Source: Runella sp.
Lineage (GTDB): Bacteria > Bacteroidota > Bacteroidia > Cytophagales > Spirosomataceae
Length of the DNA stretch: 56,263 nt
Reading direction: 5' to 3'
NCBI GenBank assembly: GCA_023254175.1
Contig: JALQYJ010000167.1
Coordinates: forward strand, 1 to 56,263
The position numbers and the translations under genes are program-made. Shown here in pieces: positions 46,895-50,820 of the stretch; the first letter of the stretch is position 1, and each line of letters opens with the position of its first letter. Below the pieces are notes generated by a model that was given only the letters and a program-made list of their open reading frames with translations, was not told where the DNA came from and ran no database searches.

Positions 46895-48142
46895 CTACTC
46901 AACCATCCATTGCATCATCAATCCTGTCAAATAACCGCCATACGTTCCAAGTGCATAGCCCAAAATAGCCAATAATACCCCTACCGACGCAAGCGACGGA
47001 TGAAACGCAGCAGCTACAACAGGAGCTGATGCTGCTCCGCCAACGTTGGCTTGTGAACCTACTGCAGCAAAAAAGAAAGGGGCTTTAAGGAGTTTCGCAG
47101 CCACTAGAGTAACTATGACATGGATAATCATCCATAAAATTCCAACGACAAAAAGTCCTGGGTTAGCAGCAACCGCAAAAATATCCATTTTCATCCCTAT
47201 GGTGGCCACAAGTATGTAAAGAAATAAACTTCCTACTTTGGAAGCCCCCGCAAATTCCAACTGACGTACACGGGTAAAGGAGAGTAGAATGCCGATAAAT
47301 GTAACAACGGATACAACCCAAAAGAAAGAAGATGTTAAGCTAAATTTTTCCAATGAAGGATAATTTTCTTTAATCCAAGGAGCCAAAAAATCAGCAGTAA
47401 GATGAGCTAGCGCAGTCGCACCAAAACCCACAGCAGCAATCATCACCAGATCATTTAGAGTTGGAATACGTTGTAACTTTTTTTGCTCTTGTTCTAATTT
47501 AACACGTAACTCATCAATAGCCGAAGCATCTGCTTTGAAAAAACGATCTATTCTTGTTGCAATCCCCGCACCATAAATTAAAACAGCCATCCATATTTCA
47601 GCAGTAATCACATCTACAGCAATTACCTGCGAAAAAAGTTGATCGCTAGGTTGGAACACTTCCTTAAGTGCAGTTTGGTTAGCCCCTCCCCCAATCCAAC
47701 TTCCAGCAATAGTGGCTAAACCTCTCCAAACAGCATCAGGCCCTGCCCCTCCAACTACCTCAGGTGCAAAAAATTTTACGATAGCTACCGACATCGGCCC
47801 ACCCAGCATTACTCCTAGTGTTCCTGCTAAAAAAACAATAAGGGCTTTAGGACCAAGTTTTATAACGGCTTCAAAATCCATTCCAAGGGTAAAATAGACC
47901 AAACAAGCTGGAAGAAAATACTGAGAAATGACCGAGTATAGTTTAGATTCTTCTCCAGAAATTACATTAAACGAGTTTAACACCCCTGGAACAAAATAAC
48001 AGAGCAGTAATGGAGGGAAAATAGCATAAAACTTAATCCACAAACGGTGCTTTAACGATGCAGTGTAAAAAACACCCGCAAGAATAAGCAAGAGTAAGCC
48101 AAGAACAATGGCATCCGACGTAAAAAGTACTAGAAGGAGCAT
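46895..48142 (-). CDS. DUF819 (YjcL-like) polytopic membrane protein
   Basis: The ATG at 48142 starts the hydrophobic N-terminus MLLLVLFTSDAIVLGLLLLIL; earlier in-frame starts (to 48250) would add 36 non-membrane residues. The roughly 415-residue protein has about ten transmembrane segments and the DUF819 signature PACLVYFTLGMDFEAVIKLGPKAL and GGANVGGAASAPVVAAAFHPSL-like segment (QANVGGAASAPVVAAAF). A cytoplasmic loop rich in charged residues sits mid-protein (RVKLEQEQKKLQRIPTL). DUF819 proteins look like small-solute transporters but have no assigned substrate. It reads toward the DUF5686 gene. Confidence 0.8.
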   Translation of the reverse strand: MLLLVLFTSDAIVLGLLLLILAGVFYTASLKHRLWIKFYAIFPPLLLCYFVPGVLNSFNVISGEESKLYSVISQYFLPACLVYFTLGMDFEAVIKLGPKALIVFLAGTLGVMLGGPMSVAIVKFFAPEVVGGAGPDAVWRGLATIAGSWIGGGANQTALKEVFQPSDQLFSQVIAVDVITAEIWMAVLIYGAGIATRIDRFFKADASAIDELRVKLEQEQKKLQRIPTLNDLVMIAAVGFGATALAHLTADFLAPWIKENYPSLEKFSLTSSFFWVVSVVTFIGILLSFTRVRQLEFAGASKVGSLFLYILVATIGMKMDIFAVAANPGLFVVGILWMIIHVIVTLVAAKLLKAPFFFAAVGSQANVGGAASAPVVAAAFHPSLASVGVLLAILGYALGTYGGYLTGLMMQWMVE

Positions 48143-48329
48143 AAAATGGAAGTGTATCAGTCGACAAAACAAAGTCAAACTTTTGTGAATACCTATTGTG
48201 TAGGCACAAAAAAAACACACAGGCCTCAAAGCTGAGCCTGCGTGTCGCAATTACACTTCATCAACAAACTAAAAACCAAATAGTTTTTCTTTAATCAAAT
48301 GTCAATTGGACACTTAATTTTATATTTTA

Positions 48330-48373
48330 AAAGGATAACTCGTTAAATGTATCATTTGAACGAGCTATCCTTT
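48330..48373 (-). terminator. Terminator of the tRNA-like RNA gene
   Basis: AAAGGATAACTCGTT (48330-48344) and AACGAGCTATCCTTT (48359-48373) form a 15-bp stem with one G-T pair and a 14-nt loop. The minus strand continues with T-rich sequence (TTTTAAAATATAAAATT). It lies about 40 nt beyond the RNA's predicted 3' end and before the divergent DUF819 start, so it closes the RNA transcript. Confidence 0.75.
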
Positions 48374-48413: not shown

Positions 48414-48576
48414 CTGTAGGAGGGGGATTCGAACCGCCCACGGTGCAGTTAGCTGCGATACAAAGTTTGGTGGTCTACCCCAGTCGACTTAGAGTGCCGG
48501 CATTATATCGTGTTTATTCTGAACTCACCACCCCCGAGACAGGAGGGCATGGCTGCCAAGTTTCATCATCCTACAG
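48414..48576 (-). ncRNA. tRNA-like RNA with a giant (~92-nt) variable region
   Basis: The minus strand can fold as a tRNA. The ends CTGTAGGA (5', 48576-48569) and TCCTACAG (3', 48421-48414) pair perfectly. A 3-bp D stem ATG/CAT encloses a 12-nt loop with GG. The anticodon arm is CCCTC-CTGTCTC-GGGGG, with GUC at positions 34-36. The T arm is GGCGG-TTCGAAT-CCCCC, with one C-C mismatch. U8, A14, G18, G19, U54, U55, C56 and A58 are all present. Where a variable arm of 4-24 nt belongs there are about 92 nt (48530-48439) that can fold further, starting with UGGUG-AGUU (48530-48522) against 48450-48441. It has a promoter upstream and a terminator downstream, no encoded CCA, and no match I know. Confidence 0.6.
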
Positions 48577-48639: not shown

Positions 48640-48671
48640 CAAAACTAGTAGATTTAATTTTTTGTTGCAAA
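48640..48671 (-). promoter_or_regulatory. Bacteroidota sigma-A promoter for the tRNA-like RNA
   Basis: On the minus strand, TTTG (-33; 48668-48671) and TAGTTTTG (-7; 48640-48647) are separated by 20 bp. This is an exact fit to the phylum consensus. Transcription would start near 48633, leaving a leader of about 57 nt before the tRNA-like 5' end, as for RNase P-processed tRNA precursors. Confidence 0.7.
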
Positions 48672-48698
48672 TTTTCTATAATTATTTTTAAAAATTTT

Positions 48699-48738
48699 GA
48701 TTTTATTCAACAAAAATAGACTTTTGTTGAATAAAATC
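48699..48738. promoter_or_regulatory. Perfect 17-bp dyad upstream of the Lrp/AsnC-type gene
   Basis: GATTTTATTCAACAAAA (48699-48715) and TTTTGTTGAATAAAATC (48722-48738) are perfect inverted repeats with a 6-bp spacer, ending 18 bp before the ATG of the regulator at 48757. The symmetry fits a dimer site of the regulator itself (autoregulation). It also lies about 28 bp upstream of the -33 element of the tRNA-like RNA promoter, so the regulator may influence both transcripts. Confidence 0.65.
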
Positions 48739-48756
48739 TAATTTTACCACTTCATC

Positions 48757-49233
48757 ATGGAACGAAATTTAGAAATTGACAAAATTGACAGTACTGACCT
48801 AAAAATTTTATCACTTCTTTTAGAAGACGCCCACCTACCCTATACCGAAATTGGCAAAAGAGTCCACGTATCTGGAGGAACTGTTCATGTTAGAATGAAA
48901 AAATTGGAACAACTTGGAATCGTAAAAGGCGCCCAGTTGCTAGTTGACCAAACTAAACTAGGCTGGGATATTAGTGCATTTTTAGGTATTTATTTAGATA
49001 AAAGTTCCCTTTATGAAGAAGTCGCTATTGAGCTCGAACAAATTCCAGAAGTAGTTAATATTCATTATACAACAGGGATTTATAGTATCTTCGCTAAAAT
49101 AGTTTGCCGAGATACTGAGCATCTTCGAAAGGTTCTTCACGACAAAATTCAAAAAGTAGGTGGTATACAGCGGACTGAAACATTTATATCTTTAGAGGAA
49201 CGAATCGCCCGTTCGATTCCGTTAACAGAATAG
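48757..49233 (+). CDS. Lrp/AsnC-family transcriptional regulator
   Basis: A 158-residue Lrp/AsnC protein. An N-terminal winged helix-turn-helix (DSTDLKILSLLLEDAHLPYTEIGKRVHVSGGTVHVRMKKLE; about residues 10-50) is followed by the RAM ligand-binding domain (VNIHYTTGIYSIFAKIVCRDTEHLRKVLHDKIQ). The first helix-turn-helix uses the recognition helix SGGTVHVRMKKLE. It probably binds DNA as an octamer and responds to an amino acid. A perfect dyad lies 18 bp upstream and the tRNA-like RNA gene is divergent. The target regulon is unknown. Confidence 0.9.
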   Translation: MERNLEIDKIDSTDLKILSLLLEDAHLPYTEIGKRVHVSGGTVHVRMKKLEQLGIVKGAQLLVDQTKLGWDISAFLGIYLDKSSLYEEVAIELEQIPEVVNIHYTTGIYSIFAKIVCRDTEHLRKVLHDKIQKVGGIQRTETFISLEERIARSIPLTE

Positions 49234-49377: not shown

Positions 49378-50820
49378 ATGAAATTAACTTTTTGGGGGGC
49401 CACTCAACAAGTGACGGGGAGCATGTACCTCCTAGAATTGGAAAGCGATTATCGTATTTTAATTGATTGTGGTTCTGATTTTGAAAGTAGCGACCGAAAA
49501 CGTGCGCTTACCGAAAAAGCCACACCTTATCCCAATGCCCTCTTTCCTTTCGAAGCTTCTTCCATCAATGTCGTTTTATTGACACATGCTCATATCGATC
49601 ACTCTGGAAATATCCCTAATCTGTACCGTGACGGCTATGAAGGACAGGTTTTATGCACAGATTCTACGCTTGCATTGACTAGTATCCTTTTAAAGGATGC
49701 AGCTTCACTAAATCAAAAACGCCTTAATGAAATTAGTAGTGCCGACTCTCAGAGAAAACGTAAAAAAGGAAAGAAAAAGGAGTTACCCAAAGATTTGTAT
49801 CTTGAAAAACAGGTTCGTGAGTCTTTAGAAAACTTTGTACCACTAGCTTTCAATCGTAGATTTAGGGTTGCCGACGACGTCATTGTGACTTTTGTTCCTG
49901 CGGGGCATTTGTTGGGGGCCGCCCACATCTTCATAGAAGTTTGGGAAAATGGGCAGAAAAAAACAATTGGTTTTTCGGGTGATGTAGGCCGTAAAGGTTA
50001 CCCTTTGTTGATCGACCCTGCAACCATTCCTCAGGTTGATTATTTAATCTGTGAAACTACCTATGGAGACCGTTTGCATGAAAAAAAGGCAACCCCAGAA
50101 CTTGCCTTAGAGGAGGTCATCAAGCGCACTTGCGTCGATATTCCAGGAAGGCTCATTATCCCGTCATTCAGTGTTGGAAGAACACAAGCTCTACTATACA
50201 CTTTGAACAAATTGTATAATGATAATAAGCTTCCTCCTATCAAGGTTTTTGCCGATAGCCCTCTTGCTTTTGAGAGTTCTAGAGTCTACCAACGAAATGT
50301 GCGAATGCTCAATCGGGAAGCTCGTGAATTCAATGAAGACAACGAATCGTTGTTTGACTTTGAAAATTTAATCTACCTCGAAAGTACCGATGCCAGCCGA
50401 GCCATTTCGAATCATGTCGAGCCTTGTATTATCATTTCTTCTTCTGGAATGGTACAAGGGGGTCGCGTAGAATACCATGTTGCTCAGAACATTAGCAATC
50501 CGTACTGTACTATTCTATTGATTGGTTATTGTGCAGAAGGAACATTGGGATGGAGACTTCTAAATGGCCAAACAACTCTTCGAGTAAGAGGGAAAGACGA
50601 ACAAGTATTGGCCAATATCGAAAAAATTGACGTATTTAGCGGCCACGGAGACAAAGAAGACCTTCTGACGTTTGTTCAGCAACAGGCACCCGCCGAGTTA
50701 AAAAAAATCTTTCTTGTCCATGGTGAAAAGCCAAGTATGGAACATTTTAAAAACACTTTACAATCAGTCGGTTACGAAAATATCGAGATTCCCACAAAGG
50801 GACAAACTTTTGAATTGTAA
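49378..50820 (+). CDS. MBL-fold metallo-hydrolase with beta-CASP/RNA-specificity domain
   Basis: A 480-residue metallo-beta-lactamase-fold nuclease. The zinc motif HAHIDH is at residues 70-75, with further ligands in the PAGHLLGAAH and SGDVG segments. The beta-CASP insert and the C-terminal RNA-specificity segment (SSSGMVQGGRVEYH; FSGHGDKEDL) match the CPSF/Ysh1-type branch. Such proteins cut RNA; RNase J and the CPSF73-like bacterial proteins are relatives. It begins a five-gene rightward run with accA 12 bp downstream. Confidence 0.88.
   Translation: MKLTFWGATQQVTGSMYLLELESDYRILIDCGSDFESSDRKRALTEKATPYPNALFPFEASSINVVLLTHAHIDHSGNIPNLYRDGYEGQVLCTDSTLALTSILLKDAASLNQKRLNEISSADSQRKRKKGKKKELPKDLYLEKQVRESLENFVPLAFNRRFRVADDVIVTFVPAGHLLGAAHIFIEVWENGQKKTIGFSGDVGRKGYPLLIDPATIPQVDYLICETTYGDRLHEKKATPELALEEVIKRTCVDIPGRLIIPSFSVGRTQALLYTLNKLYNDNKLPPIKVFADSPLAFESSRVYQRNVRMLNREAREFNEDNESLFDFENLIYLESTDASRAISNHVEPCIIISSSGMVQGGRVEYHVAQNISNPYCTILLIGYCAEGTLGWRLLNGQTTLRVRGKDEQVLANIEKIDVFSGHGDKEDLLTFVQQQAPAELKKIFLVHGEKPSMEHFKNTLQSVGYENIEIPTKGQTFEL

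Follow-up and report, generated by a model that had tools for sequence, protein, structure and literature searches.

A tRNA-like RNA with a greatly enlarged variable region was noticed on the minus strand of a 56,263-bp contig of Runella sp. (accession number JALQYJ010000167.1; this whole stretch of analysed DNA is called the window), raising the question of whether it was a decoding tRNA, a remnant of one, or an RNA with another function. An earlier note on the same DNA had proposed either an RNA descended from a tRNA, with a regulatory role or a dedicated function, or a class II tRNA that is highly expanded. The letters were found as that note had described them and belonged to a family conserved in relatives, and its proposal gained support from a Leu-type core, promoter and terminator signals, a conserved arm domain, and an anticodon loop unusual for decoding (see below).

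Location and parts of the RNA

The RNA, its parts, and its surroundings were located in the window as listed in Table 1; its 3′ end was read as A72 (48415), G73 (48414), and C74 (48413). The folding energy of the window RNA alone was unexceptional (z 0.35; 126 of 200 shuffles folded at least as well), and the evidence for the fold therefore rested on relatives.

Table 1. Features of the RNA locus in the window (R1, covariance model; own, of the Runella genome)
Feature	Position	Strand	Basis
tRNA-like RNA, position -1 to C74	48413..48576	-	T1 at 48575; 102.2 bits with R1; covariation in relatives
Acceptor stem, 5′ strand TGTAGGA	48569..48575 (partner 48421-48415)	-	Paired in 183-184 of 184 host copies
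D arm ATG-loop-CAT, tRNA-Leu-type loop AAACTTGGCAGC	48549..48566	-	Family pairing; comparison with own tRNA-Leu
Anticodon arm CCCTC-CTGTCTC-GGGGG (GUC, U37, C38)	48531..48547	-	Paired in 184 of 184 host copies; loop conserved
Variable region	about 48530-48440	-	Sequence reading
V1 stem, GGTG and CACC	48526..48529 and 48445-48442	-	Family GRNG/CNYC; third pair covaries
V2 5′ strand CAG and internal-loop strand AATAAA (family RAYAAA)	48512..48521	-	Motif enrichment; V2 covariation
Internal-loop strand CTAA and V2 3′ strand CTG	48446..48452	-	CTAA enrichment; V2 covariation
Distal variable part of arm, with TGGGGTAGACCACC module	48453..48511	-	GACCAC in 106 of 184 host and 108 of 116 phage copies
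T arm GGG(C)GG-TTCGAAT-CCCCC, bulged	48422..48439	-	Family pairing and covariation
G73-C74	48413..48414	-	26 of 31 distinct canonical own tRNA genes likewise with C74 and without full CCA
Putative Bacteroidota-type promoter TTG-N20-TAGTTTTG	48640..48670	-	TTG read by eye
Terminator-like hairpin GGATAGCTCGTT...AACGAGTTATCC-TTTT	48329..48370	-	Sequence reading
Conserved downstream 23-nt element TTTGGTTTTTAGTTTGTTGATGA	48258..48280	-	Fuzzy pattern in 47 of 151 loci vs 9 shuffled
DUF819 membrane protein gene, downstream of RNA	46895-48250	-	Recurs in 18 loci, mostly of close relatives
Divergent Lrp/AsnC-family regulator gene	48757..49233	+	Pfam PF01037, E 2.1e-18; HTH_AsnC-type, 1.2e-14
24-nt inverted repeat between Lrp start and RNA promoter	48692..48745		Candidate Lrp operator
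Beta-CASP/RMMBL metallo-hydrolase gene, beyond Lrp gene	49378-50820	+	Pfam; 7 loci of close relatives

Relatives and distribution

BLAST with 181 bases gave matches in 42 of 59 genomes (the own genome included) and in 26 of 296 phylum genomes. A sequence pattern made from the BLAST relatives hit at least 120 named contigs, all of which, among the matches listed, were titled Bacteroidota or Ignavibacteria/Ignavibacteriales (groups to which we take the taxa of the contig titles to belong), with Dyadobacter, Spirosoma, Hymenobacter, Chitinophaga, Algoriphagus, and others as carrier genera among these listed matches. A total of 187 distinct host copies were extracted, and 184 were parsed, the remainder being two truncated copies and one with a deletion. 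RNA length to C74 was 109 to 197 nt in the 184 copies, with a 78-nt relative in genome G047 as the exception.

The covariance model R1, built on 33 short forms, was run on 395 Bacteroidota-phylum genomes under the stricter filters used for large runs, which were able to lose weak matches, and it located the family in 41 of them (two via low-scoring relatives). The scores fell into two tiers: (i) 39 genomes reached at least 92 bits, with matches of 110 to 177 nt, and (ii) the remaining listed matches were around or below 68 bits, nearly all of 84 to 89 nt, i.e., of tRNA-Leu size. The two low-scoring relatives were that of G147, with a long insert and 62.7 bits, and that of G047 (G047:C23:55337-55414, locus L273), with 78 nt, no variable arm, the loop CTATCTC (A34), and 68.2 bits. 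The acceptor ends of this arm-less copy were as in the family, and it scored as a tRNA in Rfam. Carriers by coded family were f1 4/4, f19 8/8, f12 3/3 (counting G047), f26 5/5, f23 11/13 (counting G147), f22 7/10, and f65 3/3; no high-scoring genome was present in f24, f25, f34, f35, or f41 in the 395-genome search. A pattern search in six genomes returned background-level matches only, the known place in G047 excepted.

Pairing and covariation of the cloverleaf

The parser accepted only copies with TG at positions 8-9, a D loop containing GGC, a T loop containing TTC.A, and GC at 73-74, so that counts there were not free; likewise, loci from L088 onward came from a pattern fixing part of the anticodon loop, and their loop counts were not free. 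Compensatory changes, proposed in the earlier note as a check, were present in the acceptor, D, anticodon, T, and variable stems. Acceptor pair 4 was A-U, G-C, or U-A and pair 5 was G-C or A-U across the 184 copies; D-stem pairs 12, 11, and 10 were formed in 184, 184, and 164 copies, respectively; the T stem was paired in all 184 except at pair 51 (152/184), where 30 copies had one extra base fitting a bulge. The T-stem C-C mismatch reported before was better read as the bulge GGG(C)GG/CCCCC. An acceptor stem of 8 bp had also been drawn: seven pairs held, while the eighth, involving position -1 (C 104, U 57, and A 23), was not strict.

When APC-corrected mutual information was ranked for all column pairs of the 108-column core (effective number 84), the top nine were helix pairs. 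Among the 33 short forms (alignment A2), 96.1% of cells paired versus 51-58% with partners slid, and 16 pairs had changed on both sides; the observed values were reached by 0 of 500 shuffles. The family displayed the acceptor, D, anticodon, and T stems and the conserved tertiary bases of tRNA (some of these bases fixed by the parser), together with a variable region outside the normal tRNA size.

A conserved domain in the variable arm

As judged from covariation and motif recurrence, the variable region is a real domain, in which two stems covary and an internal loop is conserved. The arm was ordered as V1 (GRNG/CNYC), V2 (NNG/CNN), internal loop, and variable stem, and longer forms carried an additional module around GGGUUGACCAC. 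The third V1 pair was G-C in 75, A-U in 65, and U-A in 37 of the 184 copies, and it took rank 1 in the mutual-information ranking. The internal-loop strands had initially been found by a search fixing some of their letters, and they were hence recounted freely: RAYAAA near the insert start in 157 of 180 distinct inserts versus 7.3 in shuffles, CTAA in the last 18 nt in 179 of 180 versus 11.6, and both jointly in 156 of 180 versus 0.4 (maximum 3). Pairing between the anticodon loop and the RAYAAA strand, tabulated at position 34, was unsupported. Among the insert stems drawn before, GGUG/CACC was retained and a 3-bp CAG/CUG stem was also supported, but AGUU/AACU was not conserved. At L053, L052, L111, L037, L041, and other loci, two to three RNA copies lay close together, having the same or similar loops and different arm tips.

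Resemblance to tRNA-Leu and tRNA-Asp

R1 was also applied to the own tRNAs (26 of 30 fetched loci; the four omitted overlapped these), giving 52.0 and 48.5 bits for tRNA-Leu, 37.1 for tRNA-Tyr, 34.1 for tRNA-Ser, and at most 25.3 for the others searched; the own tRNA-Leu genes ranked second and third, behind the window copy. Together with these scores, the D loop AAAYUGGCAG and the arm layout U44-stem-GU indicated the tRNA-Leu type, and the own tRNA-Leu(taa) had the matching layout T-GAGC..GCTC-GT. A73, the discriminator in both own tRNA-Leu genes seen, was absent: all 184 parsed copies had G73, which was a parser requirement, but the three unparsed copies had failed through truncation or deletion. 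Compared to tRNA-Leu (class II, RF00005), the RNA was alike in D loop, variable-arm placement, and tertiary bases, but it differed by its GUC loop, G73, larger size, and conserved internal loop in the arm.

The own tRNA-Asp had the loop CTGTCAC, differing from the RNA loop CTGTCTC solely at position 37, and it carried G73 and G2-C71. A purine at position 37 is a general rule for decoding tRNAs. In the 184 host copies, position 37 was U in 183, C in 1, and a purine in none; U37, which had been called abnormal, was indeed an unusual base, yet it was a rule of the family and not a quirk of the window copy. U33 was present in 153 of the 184. A parse that left the anticodon loop free, but kept the requirements for full acceptor pairing, TTC, and GC, was made on the BLAST and covariance-model loci; it succeeded at 84 of 87 loci and yielded 58 distinct copies, with U 57 and C 1 at position 37, C38 in 58, U35-C36 in 58, G34 in 55, and U33 in 52. 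A review of tRNA identity names G73, G34, U35, C36, and C38 as strong aspartate determinants and G1-C72 and G2-C71 as conserved in bacterial tRNA-Asp (PMC9976931). G34, U35, C36, C38, G73, and G2-C71 all occurred together in 174 of 184 host copies, whereas U1-A72 replaced G1-C72 in 183; the RNA further differed from tRNA-Asp by its class II arm, pyrimidine 37, and Leu-type D arm. C34 was found in 9 of 184 copies (six Hymenobacter-type loci, Pontibacter, Ekhidna, and one MAG), A34 in one (L198), and U34 in one further copy found by the covariance model; because they are devoid of the G34 determinant, these copies and the A34 relative of G047 count against aspartylation there.

At the 3′ end, 26 of 31 distinct canonical own tRNA genes shared C74 without full CCA (counted by eye; 5 of 35 tRNA matches not included), and the conserved C74 was therefore the usual look of a tRNA 3′ end here. 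Positions -2 and -4 were A in 168 and 166 of 184 copies, respectively. The best reading of these comparisons is that the RNA core would be derived from tRNA-Leu, having the body of one tRNA with the putative charging signals of another.

Transcription unit and the Lrp/AsnC neighbour

The putative promoter followed what we take to be the Bacteroidota consensus: of 154 distinct upstream regions, 105 had TAnnTTTG no more than 100 nt from the RNA versus 14.9 in shuffles, and TTG lay 18-25 nt further upstream at 55 of the 98 TAnnTTTG sites with enough sequence. Of 155 downstream regions, 139 had a terminator-like hairpin no more than 130 nt from the RNA, versus 16-25 in shuffles. The 23-nt downstream element was near-identical in close relatives, at 12-169 nt from the RNA, and similar elements were seen in other families.

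By script, 109 of 156 loci had a divergent Lrp/AsnC gene immediately upstream, or 111 when two with a frame past the RNA start were counted; six of the other 45 loci had fewer than 300 upstream bases and were unjudgeable. Since loci overlapped between collections, genomes were the better unit, and an alignment of 14 linked Lrp proteins was searched against 39 RNA-bearing genomes (G147 and all high-scoring ones but G012, 38 of 39) and 29 RNA-lacking ones (30 chosen, with G047 removed for its short relative and first-tier Lrp). All 39 RNA-bearing genomes had a first-tier match (one each, 225-270 bits), which by coordinates adjoined the RNA in 29 and was unlinked in 10; first-tier matches were found in 3 of the 29 RNA-lacking genomes (G060, G178, and G413), the others having matches of at most 191 bits or, in three of them, none. 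The association had a Fisher p of 8e-16 with common ancestry ignored. R1 detected no copy at 19 loci around Lrp genes of RNA-lacking genomes (G047 included), the one clear match being an ordinary tRNA.

The own genome had five Lrp-type genes: the linked one carried the helix SGGTVHVRMKKLE, and the four paralogues differed there. A motif search in 106 Lrp-RNA intergenic regions returned mostly AT-rich words, plus ATTTGCA, which fits the promoter, in 44 of the 106 versus 3.5 in mononucleotide shuffles. We infer that the 24-nt inverted repeat may serve as the Lrp operator. The back-to-back placement with one Lrp type in many bacteria suggests a job outside ordinary protein synthesis.

Phage copies

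A total of 118 IMG/VR viral contigs matched the RNA pattern; because the pattern fixes part of the loop, loop conservation in phages was not free. Of 116 parsed copies, 94 had all seven acceptor pairs (the rest including misparsed starts), and 62 of the 94 were distinct; R1 gave 80-119 bits on 16 viral loci. ARAGORN found other tRNAs in 74 of the 116 loci, and the 51 copies with a same-strand tRNA within 150 nt suggest tRNA-style processing there. An ordinary tRNA-Asp(gtc) was present in 14 of the 36 viral loci that had at least five isoacceptors. Two protein clusters recurred: (i) one lying about 1 kb downstream of the RNA in 40 of the 116 loci, whose representative matched the terminase large subunit (phrog_6681), and (ii) one in 23 loci, whose representative matched a portal protein; the proteins of the viral loci included no Lrp match. 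With the window copy or two phage copies as queries, blastn returned no match in plasmids or isolated phages.

CTAA was present in 48 of 62 distinct phage copies, while about 15 had [TC]GAATC instead, and the internal loop was thus not universal. Directly after GACCAC, 24 of 52 distinct phage segments had a palindrome of at least 10 nt, against a shuffle mean of 0.6 and maximum of 4, and none of 92 host segments had one; the phage palindromes varied in sequence (GCTTGCAAGC, GCCGGCCGGC, GCATGCATGC, and others). They would fit RNA self-pairing, and a DNA-level role is also possible. Across viral loci L281-L398, self-complementary arm tips of 6-12 nt were enriched relative to hosts and resembled dimer-forming RNA loops. 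Separately, L299 (IMG/VR, 169,854 nt) harbored at 8252-5129 (minus strand) about seven tRNA-Leu-like shells in one phage tRNA array, with near-identical ends TAGTCAGGTGGCG...TACAGGTTCGAATCCTGTCCTGACTAC and different inserts, perhaps tRNA-ended RNAs with exchangeable payloads.

Comparison with known RNA classes

ARAGORN called no tRNA in the window, and under standard settings it called none of the 184 host copies and none of the 94 full phage copies; when introns of up to 300 were permitted, the calls rose to 20 of 184 and 1 of 94, respectively, of mixed tRNA types. The earlier note had asked for a comparison with described RNA classes: no Rfam family reached its threshold for the window copy, one weak unrelated match lying nearby on the opposite strand. 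At ten further loci (E ≤0.5), no RNA-strand match was found except for the arm-less L273 (RF00005, 40.8 bits); a weak plastid-family match, below threshold, overlapped the other strand of the L111 copy. A literature search, with most subscription papers and preprints outside its reach, found no description of this RNA.

Candidates dismissed in that note were likewise rejected here. tmRNA is a longer RNA with a tRNA-like part, as is the RNA here, but the latter has a complete anticodon arm, and the ARAGORN tmRNA search called 0 of 184. Allo-tRNA and selenocysteine tRNA are unusual long-armed tRNAs, the latter with a long D stem and a UCA anticodon; the RNA had instead a 7-bp acceptor stem, a 3-bp D stem, a much longer arm, and a GUC loop (NNGUCUC in most copies), and both were rejected on anatomy. 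A group I intron in a tRNA was rejected by size alone. An analogue in proposed role was tRNA-Other of Bacillus cereus, which is described as a tRNA-like RNA or pseudo-tRNA with a proposed role outside translation, but with a Trp anticodon, in Bacilli, responsive to iron (Fur), and made within larger RNAs, unlike the RNA here (PMC3399842).

Interpretation and alternatives

Our preferred reading, held tentatively and somewhat short of probable as a whole, is a non-standard tRNA derived from tRNA-Leu that would combine tRNA-like processing, aspartylation, non-decoding, and Lrp control; taken singly, the RNA is probably aspartylated, and its level is probably Lrp-controlled. The RNA would be trimmed like a tRNA and then given CCA. 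The major aspartate determinants, five in number, are retained along with G2-C71, and on these grounds AspRS would charge the RNA in most lineages. Its decoding would be weak or lacking, since a purine is never found at 37 and U33 is not constrained (position 33 itself leaves room for decoding, since U33 is kept in most copies). The long arm would bind a partner protein or RNA, and the neighbouring Lrp protein would set the RNA level by amino-acid supply; the RNA could then act as an aspartate-status signal, an AspRS-binding mimic, or an Asp donor outside the ribosome, and phages would bring a copy of their own, by which this function is maintained or overridden. Points against this reading are the non-G34 copies, U1-A72, Lrp without detected RNA in three genomes, the ten unlinked genomes, the lack of a viral Lrp match, and the phage copies with [TC]GAATC in place of CTAA.

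The closest rival, possible but doubtful, is a regulatory RNA that uses a tRNA scaffold without being charged, with the UCUC loop pairing with targets or the RNA titrating a tRNA-binding protein and the arm as a docking site. Loop bases 35, 36, and 38 are fixed where 33-34 vary, an Lrp link would fit a regulated regulator, and pseudo-tRNAs with roles outside translation exist (PMC3399842); G2-C71, G73, and the lineage-typical C74 would be unneeded, however, and so short a conserved loop would select targets poorly. The GUC of most copies, their place beside phage tRNAs, and the frequent U33 would also suit a decoding tRNA-Asp with an enlarged arm, additional to the ordinary one, but this is unlikely given that no copy has a purine at 37, that ordinary tRNA-Asp(gtc) is present in the own genome and in over a third of the tRNA-rich viral loci, that C34 and A34 copies exist, and that the Lrp association would be unexplained.

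Less likely again, the RNA would be carried by phages to counter tRNA-cutting defence enzymes, as a decoy or as a repair substitute, and hosts would have captured or kept it. This reading would accord with the viral contigs, often near tRNAs and with a terminase-type gene downstream, and with the beta-CASP/RMMBL gene beyond Lrp, although beta-CASP enzymes also have ordinary RNA-processing roles; Lrp-linked chromosomal copies in several families plus Ignavibacteria are not what a phage-borne decoy predicts. That the locus is a pseudogene or an integration-site remnant of a tRNA gene is hardly credible: standard ARAGORN and Rfam make no call, but across the phylum every helix shows compensatory changes and the internal loop is conserved, which contradicts it.

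A bolder extension of the preferred reading, rather unlikely as a whole, is that an Asp-charged non-decoding tRNA with an arm domain and Lrp would form an ancient amino-acid-responsive unit of Bacteroidota and Ignavibacteria, and that phage arm tips would be self-complementary hooks for RNA self-pairing by which phages take over the pathway.

The RNA is a conserved structured RNA of many cultured genera, with no Rfam family that finds it and uncalled by standard ARAGORN. Its loss of features used in normal decoding makes it a testable case of bacterial tRNAs for jobs outside translation, and it poses the question of why an Lrp-type amino-acid regulator sits on such a gene; the phage copies provide a second, independent route to its function.
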